Part shown: one piece after another, positions 2-12,250 of the stretch
Numbering within the stretch: position 1 is the stretch's first letter
How the letters are laid out: the number at the start of each line of letters is the position of its first letter
Assembly (NCBI GenBank): GCA_017452475.1
Contig: JAFTMJ010000007.1
Span: 1 to 48,346, forward strand
Length of the DNA stretch: 48,346 nucleotides
Reading direction: 5' to 3'
From: Clostridia bacterium
Lineage (GTDB): Bacteria; Bacillota; Clostridia; Oscillospirales; CAG-272
The notes under the pieces: generated by a model
What the model saw: the letters and a program-made list of their open reading frames with translations, nothing else
Told to the model about the DNA's origin: nothing
The model's database searches: none
Position numbers and translations under genes: made by a program

Positions 2-550
2 ACCAACGAAAATAGCCTTTATTTTCACGCACAATATAGACGAGTAAATCCACTGCCTTATATGGAAAATTACACAATACTTGATAATATTAGAGGCAAC
101 GGTGTATATGTTGGAACATATATGCATTGGGGCGTAAAATCCAACGGCTGGTGGGGAGAGGGCGAAATCAAATTCTATATTGATGGCGACGATGCTTTCC
201 CAACCATATGTGGCACTGGTACAGAGGACTATTTTGGTGGTGCGTACAATTTTGATGTTGATGGAAAATATGTTGAATTTTCAACCCCGTATCAAGGCTT
301 ATCAAAGGTAAACAAAACGGATTCAACCTACATATCACAAAGATATTTTGATATGTATCGTTTCCATATAACAGACCCTGTCTATTTTAAAGAGAATTTA
401 AGAGTAACAATTCAAGCCTTGGGCTGGAGAAGCGATGGCAGATATCTGCCGCTTCAGGATGACATTTCCTCTGTGGCATATTGGTACTCTGATAATTTGA
501 ATGATACCTATCCAAAATTCCCAAGCAAAAATGACTTGGAAATAATATAA
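2..550 (+). CDS. GH172 (DUF2961) family protein, 3' part only
   Basis: The reading frame is open from the window edge to the stop at 548-550, so this is the C-terminal 182 residues of a longer protein; the ATG at 62 is internal because family-like sequence (NSLYFHAQYRR, then NPLPYMENYTILD) runs upstream of it. The fragment carries the DUF2961 core: GVYVGTYMHWG, GWWGEGEIKFYIDGD and GTGTEDYFGGAYNFD. Characterised GH172 members act on fructofuranose or arabinofuranose linkages, including difructose anhydrides; that is family knowledge, and the substrate here cannot be read from the fragment. It converges on the LRR protein across a shared terminator. A GH32-like hydrolase and a sugar kinase lie nearby, which fits a furanoside or fructan theme but is not proof of one. 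Confidence 0.85.
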   Translation, partial: TNENSLYFHAQYRRVNPLPYMENYTILDNIRGNGVYVGTYMHWGVKSNGWWGEGEIKFYIDGDDAFPTICGTGTEDYFGGAYNFDVDGKYVEFSTPYQGLSKVNKTDSTYISQRYFDMYRFHITDPVYFKENLRVTIQALGWRSDGRYLPLQDDISSVAYWYSDNLNDTYPKFPSKNDLEII

Positions 551-2841: not shown

Positions 2842-2872
2842 ATTGTAAACTATAACCTTGGGTCAAGGTCAA
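2842..2872 (-). promoter_or_regulatory. MerR-type promoter/operator of the LRR gene
   Basis: On the minus strand, -35 TTGACC (2867-2872) and -10 TACAAT (2842-2847) are separated by 19 bp, longer than the usual 17 and typical of MerR-activated promoters. The spacer core, in plus orientation CTATAACCTTGGGTCAA, matches that of the promoter at 5876-5906 with one base different. Confidence 0.75.
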
Positions 2873-2901: not shown

Positions 2902-4104
2902 TTAAAGGTCCTCAAATACAAGCTCTCCGTTTTCCTTGGCAGTAGCGCATTTAAAGGTCATTTTTCCTGCATAGCCATCTATTGGCTCAAAGCCTGTAAA
3001 TACAAGCTTTCCGTTCCATTCGGCGCATTTTGGCACGCCTGCACAGGGGATTAGCTCATCGGTTACGGAAACAAAGCCATCAAAGGGCTTTTCTGACACT
3101 AAATATTTGGCTCTGCCACGAATACTAAATACAAGATAGTATTTTCCATTGTATTTAAAATAGTCGGGGCACTCCGGATGGTCGCTATTTTCAACCACGT
3201 GTATGGGTTTTTCTGCCTCCTCCCACTTTTCTAAGTCCTTTGATACATAGTGAGCAAGACAGCCCTTATTTTCTTTGACAAGCACGGTTGTTAAAAACAT
3301 ATGATATAATCCGTCCTCGCCCATTATTACCTTTGGGTCTCTTGCAACAGGACCATTATATTTTTCTGAAAGGGTAAAGCCAAAGGACTCGTCCTTTTTA
3401 AAATGATAGCCGTCATAGGATACGCTTCTTGTAATTATTGCAGGCAAGCCACTGCGTCTTATGGTGTAGTATAAATGCTCCTCATTTCCCTTTCGTATCC
3501 AAGAGCCTGTACATATAGAGCCCTCCTGCTTTTTGGTAATAGGCACTGCCATAGGGTGTATGCTCCACGTTTTAAAGTCCTTAGTTGATATATGCTCCCA
3601 TTGGTGAGCGCCCATTCCCCATTTACTTTTATGGTGGTGCCTGTCCTTTAGGTACAAAACGTGATACTCATCTCCGCGCACATAGGGCATACAATCTCCC
3701 ACAAACACTCCGTTTCCCGGATACCAGCCCTGCGCATTTTCAAAGGTGCCAATTACGCTTGGCTCTTCCTTTTCCTTCGCTACATATTCCTTAGCCTGTA
3801 TATCTATGCTACCTACAAATGTATCGCCGATTTCAAAAAGCCTTGTGCCACAGGGCCACTCCTCATCCATTACCGTGCCGTTTACATATAACTCTATTCT
3901 GTAATCAAGAAATATAGCCTTAATTTTGTCCCCTTCCTTTACTTCACAGCTTAATTCAAGAGGACGCTTATTAAAATCATACTGTGCTGATATGGTAAGA
4001 GCACCATCAATGGCTTGTATTTCAAGAGTTTTTCTTCCGTTTTTAAAGGACACGGCATAAATTTGATTTTTTGCAATTTCAAATGCTATAATAAAGTCTT
4101 TCAT
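2902..4104 (-). CDS. GH32-like cytoplasmic glycoside hydrolase with N-terminal beta domain
   Basis: A 400-residue protein without signal peptide. Residues 125-400 look like a five-bladed GH32/GH43-superfamily catalytic domain: FVGDCMPYV (candidate nucleophile D137, in place of the classic WMNDPNG), GSICTGSWI, the RDP motif at 255-257 (D256, transition-state stabiliser) and HPECPDYF (candidate acid/base E311). Residues 1-115 look like the beta-sandwich that GH32 enzymes normally carry at the C-terminus (LELSCEVKEGD, RIELYVNGTVMDEEWP), so the order appears reversed. GH32 enzymes hydrolyse fructosyl linkages in sucrose, sucrose-6-phosphate or fructans; exact specificity is not readable. It starts one base after the stop of the kinase fusion, with GGAGGG overlapping the kinase end, so the two form an operon. 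It is probably intracellular and acts on an imported sugar. Confidence 0.75.
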   Translation of the reverse strand: MKDFIIAFEIAKNQIYAVSFKNGRKTLEIQAIDGALTISAQYDFNKRPLELSCEVKEGDKIKAIFLDYRIELYVNGTVMDEEWPCGTRLFEIGDTFVGSIDIQAKEYVAKEKEEPSVIGTFENAQGWYPGNGVFVGDCMPYVRGDEYHVLYLKDRHHHKSKWGMGAHQWEHISTKDFKTWSIHPMAVPITKKQEGSICTGSWIRKGNEEHLYYTIRRSGLPAIITRSVSYDGYHFKKDESFGFTLSEKYNGPVARDPKVIMGEDGLYHMFLTTVLVKENKGCLAHYVSKDLEKWEEAEKPIHVVENSDHPECPDYFKYNGKYYLVFSIRGRAKYLVSEKPFDGFVSVTDELIPCAGVPKCAEWNGKLVFTGFEPIDGYAGKMTFKCATAKENGELVFEDL

Positions 4105-4105
4105 A

Positions 4106-5827
4106 TTACCCTCCTACATACTCTGAAAAGCCATTATTATACTTGATTTTTCCAACTGCTAATGCTGAGAAAAGGGCAGCACCTGTTGATGCCTCCTCGT
4201 CAACGCTATTAGCTGAAACAGTTGCTCCAAAGCGCTTGGATATTATGTCCTTTAGAATTTCTGTTCTCTTAATAGCTCCACCGGATGCAACTATGTGCGA
4301 TTTTTTGCAAGGGACCTTTTCATAAAGCTCATAAAGCTCATTACACATTCCCTTAAGCACCCCTAAAACAAGGGCTTGCGGAGTAAAGCTGTGTCTATCT
4401 ATATTTTTAATAGAGCCTCTTAGGTTAGGGTCGCTACGCTTTCCACAGAAAAAGGCATCAACCAAAAGTCCCTCTTCTCCATTTTCATAGGCTTGCTTGG
4501 CTAACTGATTTATTACGCTATATTGAGATTTTTCCTGTACCCCTGCGCTTACCATATAGCTTCTGAAAAATTCCTCAACCATTGAATATGCAAAGCCACC
4601 ACAAAGGGCTGAGCCACAAACTAAGTATTTCCCCTCAATGAGTGGACGTAATTCCAGCTCCTTATCTACCTCTTGATATTCGTCAGTTGCATAGGAAATT
4701 TGGGACCCTGTGCCAATATTTACAAGCATGCTGTCCTCATTTTTACTAACCGAGCCTAAAAAGCTTGCTTGATTATCTCCTATTGGAATAGCTACCGGTA
4801 TACCCATACATTTTCCTATGATTAAGCTTTCATCACTCACCTGCGGTAAAAGCTCCTTATCTATTCCAAGAAAGGATAGCTTGTCATATTTAAAGCTACT
4901 GTTTTTTACATCAAGCATACCAAGGCTACCACCCAAGGATGTGTGAGTTATAACCTTTTTGTTACCGCATATTTCCATTGCAAATAAATCCATTATTGTA
5001 CAAATACCGCAAGCTCCCTTTGGCACAAGTCCCTTTAGCATATTGTAATAATGTGTTGCTATGCCATAGCCTGTTGAAATATGCTCTTTTGTTATGTCGT
5101 AAATTAAATCACAGGCGGTTTTTTCATCCTTTATTATTTGGTCTGCGCGCTTGTCCTGCCAATTTATAAGGTTAGATACAGCCTGTCCATTTTCATCTAT
5201 ATACACAATTCCGTGCATCTGACCCGTAATGCCAATGCTTACTATATTCTCATAGATTGAAAGAATATGGTACAAAAGCTTTTTGGCTTTTTCCATAATT
5301 ATGGACACGTCCTGCTCCGAAAACGCTCCCCTTCGGGTGTAGGAGCTGTGTGGTAGGGTATATGCTTCTATTTGCTCCTTGTTATCAATATCGTACACGA
5401 GGGCGCTTATAGTTGTTGTGCCGATATCTATGCCCACACAGGGTGTGCCATAGCCACCGTTTCTTGCTTTTTCATTTTCGGTAAAGCTTTCAGTGTTTTC
5501 AAGTGCTTCCAATGAGCTTTTTGCAGAAATGCTTTCGCAAATGCCATATATTTCAGAATTTTTGCCGCTTTCCTTTAGAATTTCAGCCTTTCTTTTTTCT
5601 ATTAGCTCCTCTAAGCTAACTACCCCAAACAGATACAGCTTAATATCGGATATAGCTATGCCAATTCTTCTAAAAAGCTTTATTTCCTTCAAGGCTTTTA
5701 CATCCTTTTCTGTATAATTACGATAACCGTTTTCCTCTCTTGAAATGTTAATTAGTCCCTTGCTTTCATATAAACGGATTGCCTTAGCTGTCAAGCCGGT
5801 TATTTTTTCCACATCATTTATCTTCAT
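4106..5827 (-). CDS. MerR DNA-binding domain fused to sedoheptulokinase-like FGGY sugar kinase
   Basis: A 573-residue fusion. Residues 1-70 are a MerR-type winged helix-turn-helix (KINDVEKITGLTAKAIRLYE, then GYRNYTEKDV and FRRIGIAISDIK); 70-90 resemble the MerR dimerisation helix; a linker runs to about 128. From 129 there is an entire FGGY kinase: GIDIGTTTIS (phosphate loop), GITGQMHGIVY, LINWQDKRAD, STGYGIATHYYN, the catalytic-loop GDNQAS, and a C-terminal ATP-site GGAIKRTEIL. GITGQMHG, NWQD and TIMD recall sedoheptulokinases more than xylulokinases or glycerol kinases. The start is ATG 5827 with GAGGTG six bases before it; the in-frame ATG at 5842 would sit at the SD and adds no conserved residues. 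Inferred role: a sugar-responsive kinase-regulator controlling its own operon. I know of no characterised protein with this architecture. Confidence 0.88.
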   Translation of the reverse strand: MKINDVEKITGLTAKAIRLYESKGLINISREENGYRNYTEKDVKALKEIKLFRRIGIAISDIKLYLFGVVSLEELIEKRKAEILKESGKNSEIYGICESISAKSSLEALENTESFTENEKARNGGYGTPCVGIDIGTTTISALVYDIDNKEQIEAYTLPHSSYTRRGAFSEQDVSIIMEKAKKLLYHILSIYENIVSIGITGQMHGIVYIDENGQAVSNLINWQDKRADQIIKDEKTACDLIYDITKEHISTGYGIATHYYNMLKGLVPKGACGICTIMDLFAMEICGNKKVITHTSLGGSLGMLDVKNSSFKYDKLSFLGIDKELLPQVSDESLIIGKCMGIPVAIPIGDNQASFLGSVSKNEDSMLVNIGTGSQISYATDEYQEVDKELELRPLIEGKYLVCGSALCGGFAYSMVEEFFRSYMVSAGVQEKSQYSVINQLAKQAYENGEEGLLVDAFFCGKRSDPNLRGSIKNIDRHSFTPQALVLGVLKGMCNELYELYEKVPCKKSHIVASGGAIKRTEILKDIISKRFGATVSANSVDEEASTGAALFSALAVGKIKYNNGFSEYVGG

Positions 5828-5875
5828 TTCCACACCTCGCATATGTTAAAGTCAGTGCATTTATATTTTAATTTT

Positions 5876-5906
5876 ATCATACACTATAACCTTAGGTCAA
5901 TGTCAA
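5876..5906 (-). promoter_or_regulatory. MerR-type promoter/operator of the kinase-hydrolase operon
   Basis: Minus-strand -35 TTGACA (5901-5906) and -10 TATGAT (5876-5881) enclose a 19-bp spacer. In plus orientation the spacer contains CTATAACCTTAGGTCAA, whose ACCTTAGGT core is a near-perfect palindrome. Both the long spacer and the position of the dyad are what MerR-family activators bind. The conserved block, including the upstream AAACACTTGAC, recurs at 2842-2872. Confidence 0.78.
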
Positions 5907-5985: not shown

Positions 5986-6029
5986 GCAAAAAGGCATACT
6001 TGACAATTCAGTCAAGTATGCCTTTTTGC
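5986..6029 (-). terminator. terminator after the MATE gene
   Basis: A perfect 19-bp stem (5986-6004 with 6011-6029) with loop AATTCA. Runs of A and T form the outer part of the stem, so it can end transcription on either strand; the MATE gene ends 29 bases away. Confidence 0.85.
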
Positions 6030-6057
6030 ATTATGCCACACTGGAGTGAGGCGTGCT

Positions 6058-8872: not shown

Positions 8873-9504
8873 TATTTGTCCCCCTTGTTCTTCTTATTTT
8901 TGTTAGCAACCTTATTAAACGCCTTATTTAGCGCATCAAACACAGGCACGCCCGAGGTTCCCTTTTCCATATTCTTATCATCCTCATAGCAAATACGGGC
9001 ATAGCAGTTAAACAAAATCACAAGCATAAAGGCGGAGTACAAAATTTGCAAAATCAAGCAAACAATGCCAAGCCTTGGTGTGACAAGCTCACCCTTGACA
9101 AATATGGAAATTATATCACAAATCAAATATGCGGCAATGAAAACGGTGTTAACAATGCTCCAGCCTTGAAGCTTCCTCAGCTCGACCTCCCCAGCAAGCA
9201 GGTAAATGCCCACAAGGATAAGTATAAGCAAGGAAGGCGCCAAAACGCCCTCAAGCTGAATAAGCACACCGTAAAAGATGTTGGCAACGCTACCGAAAAC
9301 ATACATTCCAACACTTGTAAGACTGACAAGAAGCAGGGCTGCAGAGGTTATGGCAGAAGCCACGAAAAGCTTGTTTTGTACCGATAGCTTGTACAGTGCA
9401 AAAAGCATTAGTGCAGAGCCCAAAACATATGTGAAGGAGCTAATCGGCGTTAGCGCCCCAAAATATGTTAAAAACACCGCAAAAAACAATATACCGAAGC
9501 CCAT
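8872..9504 (-). CDS. small polytopic membrane protein of unknown function, coupled to secA
   Basis: 210 residues with about five to six membrane segments and a C-terminal cytoplasmic-looking tail rich in Lys and Asn (ANKNKKNKGDK). I recognise no family. The start overlaps the secA stop as TAATG and its own stop overlaps the next start in the same way, so secA and both membrane genes form one translationally coupled run. It may be specific to this bacterial lineage. Confidence 0.72.
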   Translation of the reverse strand: MGFGILFFAVFLTYFGALTPISSFTYVLGSALMLFALYKLSVQNKLFVASAITSAALLLVSLTSVGMYVFGSVANIFYGVLIQLEGVLAPSLLILILVGIYLLAGEVELRKLQGWSIVNTVFIAAYLICDIISIFVKGELVTPRLGIVCLILQILYSAFMLVILFNCYARICYEDDKNMEKGTSGVPVFDALNKAFNKVANKNKKNKGDK

Positions 9505-11309
9505 TATGCTTCTCCGCCCTGGTTAGCTCCACAGCATTTTTTGTACTTCTTTCCGCTTCCGCAAGGACAAGGCTCGTTTCTGCCCACCTTTTGCTCTGCT
9601 CTTACGGGCTGTTTAACCTGCTTTGCAGGCTTGTTTTGCTTTGCGCCAAAGTTCATAAAGCCCTCTTCTGTCGGCTTTACAACCTGTACACGCTGCATTG
9701 GCTTTTCCTTAGGAATAGCGGACAAAATGCCCCGAACTGTATCGTCACGAATATTAATAATCATATCGTCGAACAGGTCTGCGCCTGCAAGCCTATACTC
9801 ATTGATTGGATTACGCTGAGCGTAGGACTGAAGTCCAATACTGTCGCGAAGGTCGTCCATTGCCTCTAAGTGATCCATCCACTTTTCATCAACATTGCGA
9901 AGAAGGACAACCCTTTCAAGCTCTCTTGCCCCTTCCTCACCGAACAGCTCATCCTTGCTCTGCCAAAGCTTCATAGCGCGGTCGGTCAAGGTGTCCAAAA
10001 TATCATCCGAGTCAAGGCTTTCATCAAGGAAATCCTCCTTTGAGCATAATAGACCCATATATTTGTTCTTAAGCTCTTGCAGCTCCCAAGAATCGCTATC
10101 CCCGTTCAAGTATGCATCAACGGAATCACGAATTGAGGACTTAATCATATTCTCAATCTTAGACTTTAGGTCATTTCCGTCAAGAACATCTGCACGCTGA
10201 GAATAAATTATATTTCTCTGCTGATTCATAACGTCATCATAGGAAAGGACATGCTTTCTCCTTGCAAAGTTCCTACCCTCAAGGCGCTTCTGCGCATTTT
10301 CAATTTGGCTGGAAAGGAGCCTTACATCAAGGGCGGTGTCCTCATCCAAGCCAAGCCTTGAAACGATACCGATTATTCTGTCACCGCCGAAAAGACGCAT
10401 TAAGTCATCCTCAAGGGATATAAAGAAACGGGATTCACCGGGGTCACCCTGACGGCCTGAACGGCCTCTTAGCTGGTTGTCGATACGCCTACTCTCGTGG
10501 CGCTCTGTACCTATTATAAACAAGCCCCCCGCTTCTCTTACCTTTTCAGCCTCGGGCTCTATTTCAACCTTGAACTTGTTATATAGCTCATTAAACACCC
10601 TTCTTGCCTCAAAAACCTCTTCGCTAACGGACTGTGAGCTTCCTGTTGCCAAGGCAATCATTTCCTCCTCATATCCGTCCTTACGCATTTGGTTTTTAGC
10701 AAGGAACTCTGCATTACCGCCAAGCATAATATCAGTACCACGGCCCGCCATATTGGTTGAAATGGTAACGGCACCGAATTTACCTGCCTGGGCAACGATT
10801 TCCGCTTCTCTTTCGTGATACTTGGCATTAAGCACTGTATGCGGAATGCCTGCGCCCTTAAGCTTTTTTGAAAAAGCCTCGGATTTTTCAATGGAAACAG
10901 TGCCGACAAGAACAGGCTGACCCTTTGCGTGGCACTCCTTAATTTGTGCAATTACGGCTCTGTCACGACCCGCACAGCTCCTGTATACACGGTCATTGTG
11001 GTCAAGCCTTATCATTGGCTTGTTTGTAGGTACAACAACAACGTCCAAGTCATAAATCTCACGGAATTCCGCTTCCTCGGAAAGGGCGGTACCTGTCATA
11101 CCGGAAAGCTTTTTATACATTCTAAAGTAGTTTTGGAATGTGATTGTGGCAATTGTTCTGTTTTCCCTTTGAATTTTCACCTTTTCCTTTGCCTCAATTG
11201 CCTGGTGCAATCCGTCGGAATAGCGTCTGCCCGGCATAAGACGGCCTGTAAAGGTATCAACTATGATAATTTGTCCGTCATGAATTACATAATCGGTATC
11301 ACGGTGCAT
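9504..11309 (-). CDS. secA: SecA preprotein translocase ATPase, C-terminal part after a frameshift
   Basis: The frame gives 601 residues from an internal ATG; SecA-like sequence in the same frame continues upstream to about 11440 ([20 protein letters not shown]), so the ATG at 11309 is not a natural start. It holds the second motor half: VDTFTGRLMPGRRYSDGLHQAIEAKE, KLSGMTGTALSEEAEF, GRGTDIMLGG, ESRRIDNQLRGRSGRQGDPG, the helical scaffold and wing, and the C-terminal zinc motif CPCGSGKKYKKCC that binds SecB or lipid. SecA drives protein export through SecYEG. Joined to the upstream frame it would make a normal protein of about 915 residues. Its stop overlaps the next gene. Confidence 0.93.
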   Translation of the reverse strand: MHRDTDYVIHDGQIIIVDTFTGRLMPGRRYSDGLHQAIEAKEKVKIQRENRTIATITFQNYFRMYKKLSGMTGTALSEEAEFREIYDLDVVVVPTNKPMIRLDHNDRVYRSCAGRDRAVIAQIKECHAKGQPVLVGTVSIEKSEAFSKKLKGAGIPHTVLNAKYHEREAEIVAQAGKFGAVTISTNMAGRGTDIMLGGNAEFLAKNQMRKDGYEEEMIALATGSSQSVSEEVFEARRVFNELYNKFKVEIEPEAEKVREAGGLFIIGTERHESRRIDNQLRGRSGRQGDPGESRFFISLEDDLMRLFGGDRIIGIVSRLGLDEDTALDVRLLSSQIENAQKRLEGRNFARRKHVLSYDDVMNQQRNIIYSQRADVLDGNDLKSKIENMIKSSIRDSVDAYLNGDSDSWELQELKNKYMGLLCSKEDFLDESLDSDDILDTLTDRAMKLWQSKDELFGEEGARELERVVLLRNVDEKWMDHLEAMDDLRDSIGLQSYAQRNPINEYRLAGADLFDDMIINIRDDTVRGILSAIPKEKPMQRVQVVKPTEEGFMNFGAKQNKPAKQVKQPVRAEQKVGRNEPCPCGSGKKYKKCCGANQGGEA

Positions 11310-11422
11310 TATTCCGTGCGCCCTGATTGCCTGCTGGATATGGTGGTAAAGCTCGGAGTTTTCGGGTGCAGACAGATTTTCGATTTCAAAATGCTTCTCC
11401 GCCTTTTCAACACCGTACTTTG

Positions 11423-12250
11423 TTAAGGTAACACTTCTTGCCTTTCATCAACGATATAGTCAGCAAGAATATCGTCATGCTCTACCTTTAGATCAAGCTC
11501 CTTAATTACAAACTTTCTGAGCTTTGATACAAAAGCCTCAGCCCTGTCATAAAGATCTGTTGACTTTTGACCTGCGCCTGAAATGATAAGAGGAGTTCTT
11601 GCCTCATCGATAAGGATTGAGTCAACCTCATCAACAATTGCAAAGGTGTGGCCTCTTTGCGCCATATCCTCCTTGTAAATAACCATATTATCACGAAGGT
11701 AGTCAAAGCCAAACTCGTTGTTTGTACCGTAGGTAATATCGCATCTGTATGCGTTGATTTTTTCTTCCCTTGACTGACCGTGAACAACAAGACCTGTTGT
11801 AAGCCCCAAGAACTCGTGGACTCTACCCATTTCCTCACAGCCGAGCCTTGCAAGATAGTCGTTAACGGTAACAACGTGTACGCCGTTACCTGTCAATGCA
11901 TTCAAGTAAGATGGCATAACAGCAACAAGAGTTTTACCCTCACCTGTCTTCATTTCCGCAATTCTGCCCTGATGCAACAAAATACCGCACATAAGCTGAA
12001 CTCTGAATGGGCGCTTGCCAAGAACCCTGTCTGCCGCCTCACGAACCAAGGCAAATGCCTCGGGCAGGATATCGTCAAGAGTTTCTCCGTTCCTTAGCCT
12101 TTCCTTAAACTCATCGGTCTTAGCGCGCATTTCATTGTCAGACATAGCCTTATATTTGTCTGCCAAGCCTTCAATTTCATCAACCAAAGGAATGATTTTT
12201 TTAATTTGACGGTCACTGTATGTGCCGAATATTTTTGTAAAAAGTCCCAT
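11423..12250 (-). CDS. secA: SecA preprotein translocase ATPase, N-terminal part before a frameshift
   Basis: 275 residues covering the first motor domain and start of the preprotein-binding domain: [21 protein letters not shown], Walker [37 protein letters not shown] and the DEAD-type [19 protein letters not shown]. The frame ends at VDERQEVLP, where family members continue as VDEKA..VTLT. Adding one A in the A-run at 11443-11445 (plus strand TTT) restores [19 protein letters not shown] and fuses it to the downstream frame. SecA is essential, so a sequencing or assembly error is the likeliest cause. The region before the ATG has a small GCCA/TGGC hairpin between a distant AAGGA and the start. 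Confidence 0.92.

Follow-up and report, generated by a model that had tools for sequence, protein, structure and literature searches.

The window, i.e., the whole analyzed stretch of 48,346 nucleotides of the Clostridia bacterium contig JAFTMJ010000007.1, contains on its minus strand a gene (positions 4106–5827; ATG at 5827, stop codon at 4106–4108) encoding a 573-aa protein in which a MerR-type domain is joined to an FGGY carbohydrate kinase. The frame from 5827 to 4106 is open throughout, so that both parts are translated from one ORF with the corresponding Pfam domains. The mechanically called ORF is longer, starting at the in-frame ATG at 5842; the ribosome-binding site GAGGTG (5833–5838, minus strand) precedes the ATG at 5827 by 5 nt. 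The MerR winged-helix DNA-binding domain occupies residues 1–66 (5630–5827), as judged from the MerR_1 profile, the matches to CueR chains, and pN/pS, and the FGGY kinase region with the ATP loop, GQMHG, and GDNQAS occupies residues 129–573 (4109–5443; Pfam, XylB profile, and Foldseek). AlphaFold2 placed two helices after the wHTH (residues 72–86 and 92–101; 5525–5614), which are the candidate dimerization/coupling segment. The second gene of the operon (2902–4104, minus strand), starting 1 nt after the stop codon of the fusion, codes for a 400-aa GH32-like hydrolase with the GH32N domain (Pfam). Next to it on the same strand lies a gene (611–2803) for a secreted 730-aa BspA-type LRR protein (LRR_5 in Pfam), a putative regulon member. 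At the edge of the window (2–550, plus strand), the contig start truncates a DUF2961 (GH172-type) gene, whose remaining C-terminal part is convergent with the LRR gene. A strong inverted repeat (AAAAAGGCATACTTGA...TCAAGTATGCCTTTTT; 6000–6045) separates the fusion operon from a MATE transporter gene and is likely the terminator of the latter.

The sequence-only reading had proposed a single MerR–FGGY protein with intact kinase motifs, and both proposals were borne out. The MerR_1 domain (residues 1–66) scored 58.9 bits against the cutoff of 21.6, and FGGY_N (residues 131–358) scored 84.4 bits against 28.8 within a two-domain kinase spanning approximately residues 129–573; GIDIGTTT, GQMHG, and GDNQAS are all present. 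The same architecture was confirmed across the relatives, with MerR_1 and FGGY_N found in 20/20 and FGGY_C in 18/20 fusions (Pfam). The FGGY_C of the window copy fell short of E 0.01, being too diverged to score, and the NCBIfam XylB profile spanned both kinase domains (residues 131–562) at 119.3 bits, below its equivalog cutoff of 380.25. The AlphaFold2 model of the fusion (pLDDT 88, pTM 0.88) matched solved FGGY kinases over both domains (3ll3, E 1e-29, Foldseek). In the alignment of 20 fusions, D139, T142-T143, GQMHG, and D356 (numbering of a 578-aa protein) were invariant, and the kinase-only orthologues, some of which also retain the GH32-like partner (e.g., G016), keep the same motifs. 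These features speak for an FGGY half that is still catalytically active.

At the other end of the protein, CueR chains matched residues 1–61 and the recognition helix resembles that of CueR; the NCBIfam CueR equivalog scored 54.9 bits against the required 147. The helix after the wHTH is broken in the monomer model (77–91 and 97–106), whereas the typical MerR dimerization helix is longer. The MerR half probably binds DNA and dimerizes. The linker (residues ~110–128) is poorly conserved and modeled with low confidence, and neither another effector domain nor a metal-site loop was visible between the wHTH and the kinase in Pfam searches or in the alignment of 20 fusions.

A joined frame of this kind might be a sequencing or assembly artefact uniting two separate genes, and two observations point that way. 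The secA gene of the same contig (9504–12250, minus strand) is split into two frames, 11423–12250 and 9504–11309, its second half resuming in another frame at about 11420–11425, probably due to a base error in the contig; moreover, the relative G025 has its two halves in different frames. Against the artefact stand at least 24 intact fusions from independent assemblies, distributed over the genus, its family, and two more families within the order. Since so many independent assemblies share the joined frame, the fusion cannot be a base error, and it is real, as had been claimed, rather than a product of an artefact near codon 120. In protein searches, 10 of the 29 genomes of the genus had the intact fusion (94 to 62% identity) and one more a frameshifted copy; the family sample added another ten genomes (64 to 38% identity). 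Further named gut MAGs carry it as well, and the order has it in two more families, represented by G302 (65%) and G365 (60%). Among the matches listed for 291 class-level genomes, none from outside the order aligned from the MerR start; one Lachnospiraceae MAG from outside the order (L097) has the MerR–FGGY architecture with a broken frame. No fusion was found among the matches listed for the plasmid collection. In G025 (L151, 9230–9345, minus strand), the frameshift falls where the linker has six consecutive A, the adjoining sequence still aligns in the other frame, and the operator is still present in the promoter. The view of this copy as separate proteins or an ancestral gene pair was rejected because the halves go out of frame at the A6 run. 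Taken together, we regard the artefact as having practically no chance of being correct.

Nonsynonymous changes were few relative to synonymous ones in the MerR part (pN/pS about 0.13–0.25) and in the kinase part in every pair compared, with the linker looser. Hence, purifying selection acts on both halves. In the kinase tree, the fusions intermingle with kinase-only genes, giving about 10 state changes, so the MerR half was lost or gained repeatedly. A single old fusion followed by losses of MerR is favored because the junction, the operator, and the partner gene are all the same. A tblastn search for MerR remnants 5' of kinase-only genes found one only in G025. The same kinase subfamily is widespread without MerR, also in the relatives G004 and G016; the kinase is therefore not dependent on the switch. 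The N-terminal fusions on eight stand-alone kinases (L045, L089, L090, L094, L099, L108, L109, and L111) lacked a MerR-like start and were judged to be an upstream reading frame.

MerR activators work on promoters with 19–20 bp between the -35 and -10 motifs (PMC9909328). The fusion operon is preceded by such a promoter/operator (5876–5906, minus strand; TTGACA-N19-TATGAT) with a candidate dyad ACATTGACCTAAGGTTATAGT at 5883–5903. Among candidate promoters no farther than 110 bp from the start, the best one had a spacer of exactly 19 bp in 23/23 fusion loci (e.g., TTGACA-N19-TATAAT), and two more loci agreed, making 25/25 readable fusion promoters, with the ambiguous frameshifted G025 copy left out. 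As a background, 700 other genes of the same loci yielded 137 promoter-like matches, of which 9 were best at 19 bp; the corresponding number for the kinase-only genes was 0 of 16 examined. The published CueR signal is ACCTTCCC-(5)-TGGAAGGT with a 19-bp spacer (PMC1526738). The best candidate dyad center in the fusion promoters was spacer position 8, where this signal falls, and the L165 site, TTGACCTTACCGTAAGGGGAAGGTTTATAAT, is nearly a CueR site. The dyad symmetry was matched by 88/500 column-shuffled spacers and is not significant alone. The case for a DNA target rests on the spacer length and on co-occurrence, because the symmetry did not beat the shuffles.

Among the 29 genus genomes, the operator was present in 11/11 with the MerR part and in 0/18 without it, including two kinase-only genomes (Fisher 3e-8, the genomes not being independent). 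A reversed-pattern control gave 0 matches in the genus genomes. The co-occurrence is partly circular, since the operator pattern was built from the fusions' self promoters; for this reason, independent support is confined to the genomes empty of operators and to eight extra sites. Overall, the comparative data give good support to DNA targeting by the fusion, in line with the earlier proposal that its DNA-binding half is active and autoregulating. At the family level, a broader operator pattern also picked up operators probably belonging to other MerR proteins. In one genome (G030; contigs C14, C24, C36, C37, and C59), another kind of MerR-like 19-bp promoter occurs eight times, mostly as TTGACTTTTACCCTGCGTAAAAGTTTATAAT or a near variant; these copies look like a separate multi-target MerR regulon.

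The sequence-only reading had also described paired operators near the gene. These are best read as two separate MerR-type promoters, that of the fusion operon and a second operator copy upstream of the LRR gene (2842–2872, minus strand; TTGACC-N19-TACAAT). The 2.1-Mb genome to which the window belongs has three operators in all, the third one preceding a GH4 gene on contig C39. The eight non-self sites in the genus were all located in MerR-bearing genomes: ahead of LRR genes in G000 (the copy in the window) and in three other fusion genomes (G011, G017, and G025), a GH38-like gene in G011, and GH4 genes in G000 and G001, with the eighth site, in G002, in the matching place ahead of a contig end. 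The GH4 protein exceeds the cutoff of the alpha-galactosidase subfamily.

In most fusion loci, the GH32-like gene lies behind the kinase gene, and a full secreted GH32 gene adjoins several of these loci. In the GH32-like protein, D137, R255-D256-P257 (ARDP), and E311-C312 are conserved, and the nearest structures to its model (pLDDT 94) were levanases and beta-fructosidases (Foldseek). With this relative of beta-fructosidases as the operon partner, a fructose-type ketose is expected as the substrate and seems more likely than sedoheptulose. The initial label of sedoheptulokinase was not supported: the best named matches, xylulokinase and gluconokinase, were far under their cutoffs, and a sedoheptulokinase model was absent from the Pfam/NCBIfam results, as was such an enzyme from the PDB matches. 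In another genomic setting, eight kinase-only relatives (L077, L078, L091, L095, L101, L105, L107, and L177) lie behind genes for a PFL-like glycyl radical enzyme and a radical-SAM activase, some of these loci also adjoining an MPI-cupin gene; they are candidates for an undescribed sugar pathway.

We propose that the fusion is a one-component regulator–enzyme: a MerR activator that controls its own operon and whose effector domain is a catalytically active ketose kinase (probability about 0.7). As a dimer, the MerR half would bind within the 19-bp spacer in its own promoter and in a small number of others. The GH32-like enzyme would release fructose or a close ketose, to be phosphorylated by the FGGY half. 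Binding of the sugar (and ATP) would shut the kinase cleft; FGGY domains are known to close on sugar binding (PMC3245297). The closure might be relayed via the helices and the linker (residues about 72–128) and reset the MerR dimer, which would then twist the promoter and allow transcription to start. The induced set would comprise the kinase and GH32-like genes, the LRR protein, and the GH4 gene elsewhere in the genome, and the signal would decay as the kinase consumed the sugar. That the FGGY kinase is the inducer sensor, the closure of its cleft on its own substrate switching promoter twisting so that occupancy sets expression of the pathway, appears to us only somewhat better than an even bet. 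Direct sensing of the sugar and ATP, as suggested by the sequence-only reading, is plausible, and both sugar-gated switching and kinase activity are inferred.

In many ROK regulators, the kinase fold serves chiefly as a sensor. By analogy, the kinase half could be a ligand sensor that does not phosphorylate and through which the MerR half regulates, as in ROK repressors. We consider this improbable: the ATP-loop, GQMHG, and GDNQ residues do not vary among the 20 fusions, selection on the kinase is that of an enzyme, and the motifs recur in the kinase-only orthologues, of which some, such as that of G016, have the same GH32-like partner. Alternatively, translational fusion might do nothing but ensure co-expression of the two halves, the MerR part being constitutive or responding to something else. 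The coupling could indeed be loose, as the linker is so poorly conserved and so uncertainly modeled. The retention of the joint in several genera and three families, and the lack of any other visible effector domain or metal-site loop between wHTH and kinase, speak against mere co-expression, which we judge unlikely, though less so than the non-phosphorylating sensor. The active kinase as the effector of a MerR activator remains the preferred reading.

The principle of an enzyme acting as a regulator is already known from ROK proteins, NadR, and RbkR. NadR combines an HTH with NMN adenylyltransferase and ribosylnicotinamide kinase, being a metabolite kinase and a regulator in one. The archaeal RbkR likewise unites an HTH and riboflavin kinase in a single protein (PMC8305020). 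Both differ from the fusion in having unrelated HTH and kinase folds and in serving vitamin/cofactor pathways rather than sugar catabolism. The ROK regulators NagC, Mlc, and XylR share with the fusion the combination of an HTH with a sugar-kinase fold and the regulation of sugar genes. They have another HTH and another kinase family and are mostly repressors; within the ROK family, some proteins are kinases and others regulators (PMC4856308). The fusion protein had no match to a ROK domain in Pfam. The parallel drawn earlier is a fair one of function, not of kinship.

If the proposal is correct, a single polypeptide couples the occupancy of an enzyme to transcription in a natural system that has a defined operator, a three-target regulon, and related genomes lacking the MerR half (G004 and G016). 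A new sugar-responsive switch is then predicted for gut Clostridia, and the protein may be useful as a scaffold for biosensors. Work on MerR–FGGY or MerR–sedoheptulokinase proteins was not found in the literature that could be searched, in agreement with the initial statement that no studied fusion of this kind was known. Within the searchable literature, both the combination of MerR and FGGY and the use of an activator instead of a repressor are new. With CueR-type MerR activators, the fusion shares the N-terminal wHTH with the LTxKAIRxYE and NGYRxY segments and the 19-bp-spacer promoters, but its effector is a sugar kinase of ~445 residues instead of a metal loop, a GyrI-like domain, or a B12 domain; in the searchable papers, this would be the first described case of a metabolic enzyme in the effector position of a MerR activator. 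With the xylulokinase/gluconokinase-like FGGY kinases (solved examples 3ll3 and 3gbt), it has in common two actin-like domains, the ATP loop, and the catalytic GD motif. The identity to the solved members is only ~20–25%, the kinase part is shorter (about 445 versus ~490 residues), and it carries a DNA-binding domain, which would be the first such case for an FGGY kinase in the searchable papers.
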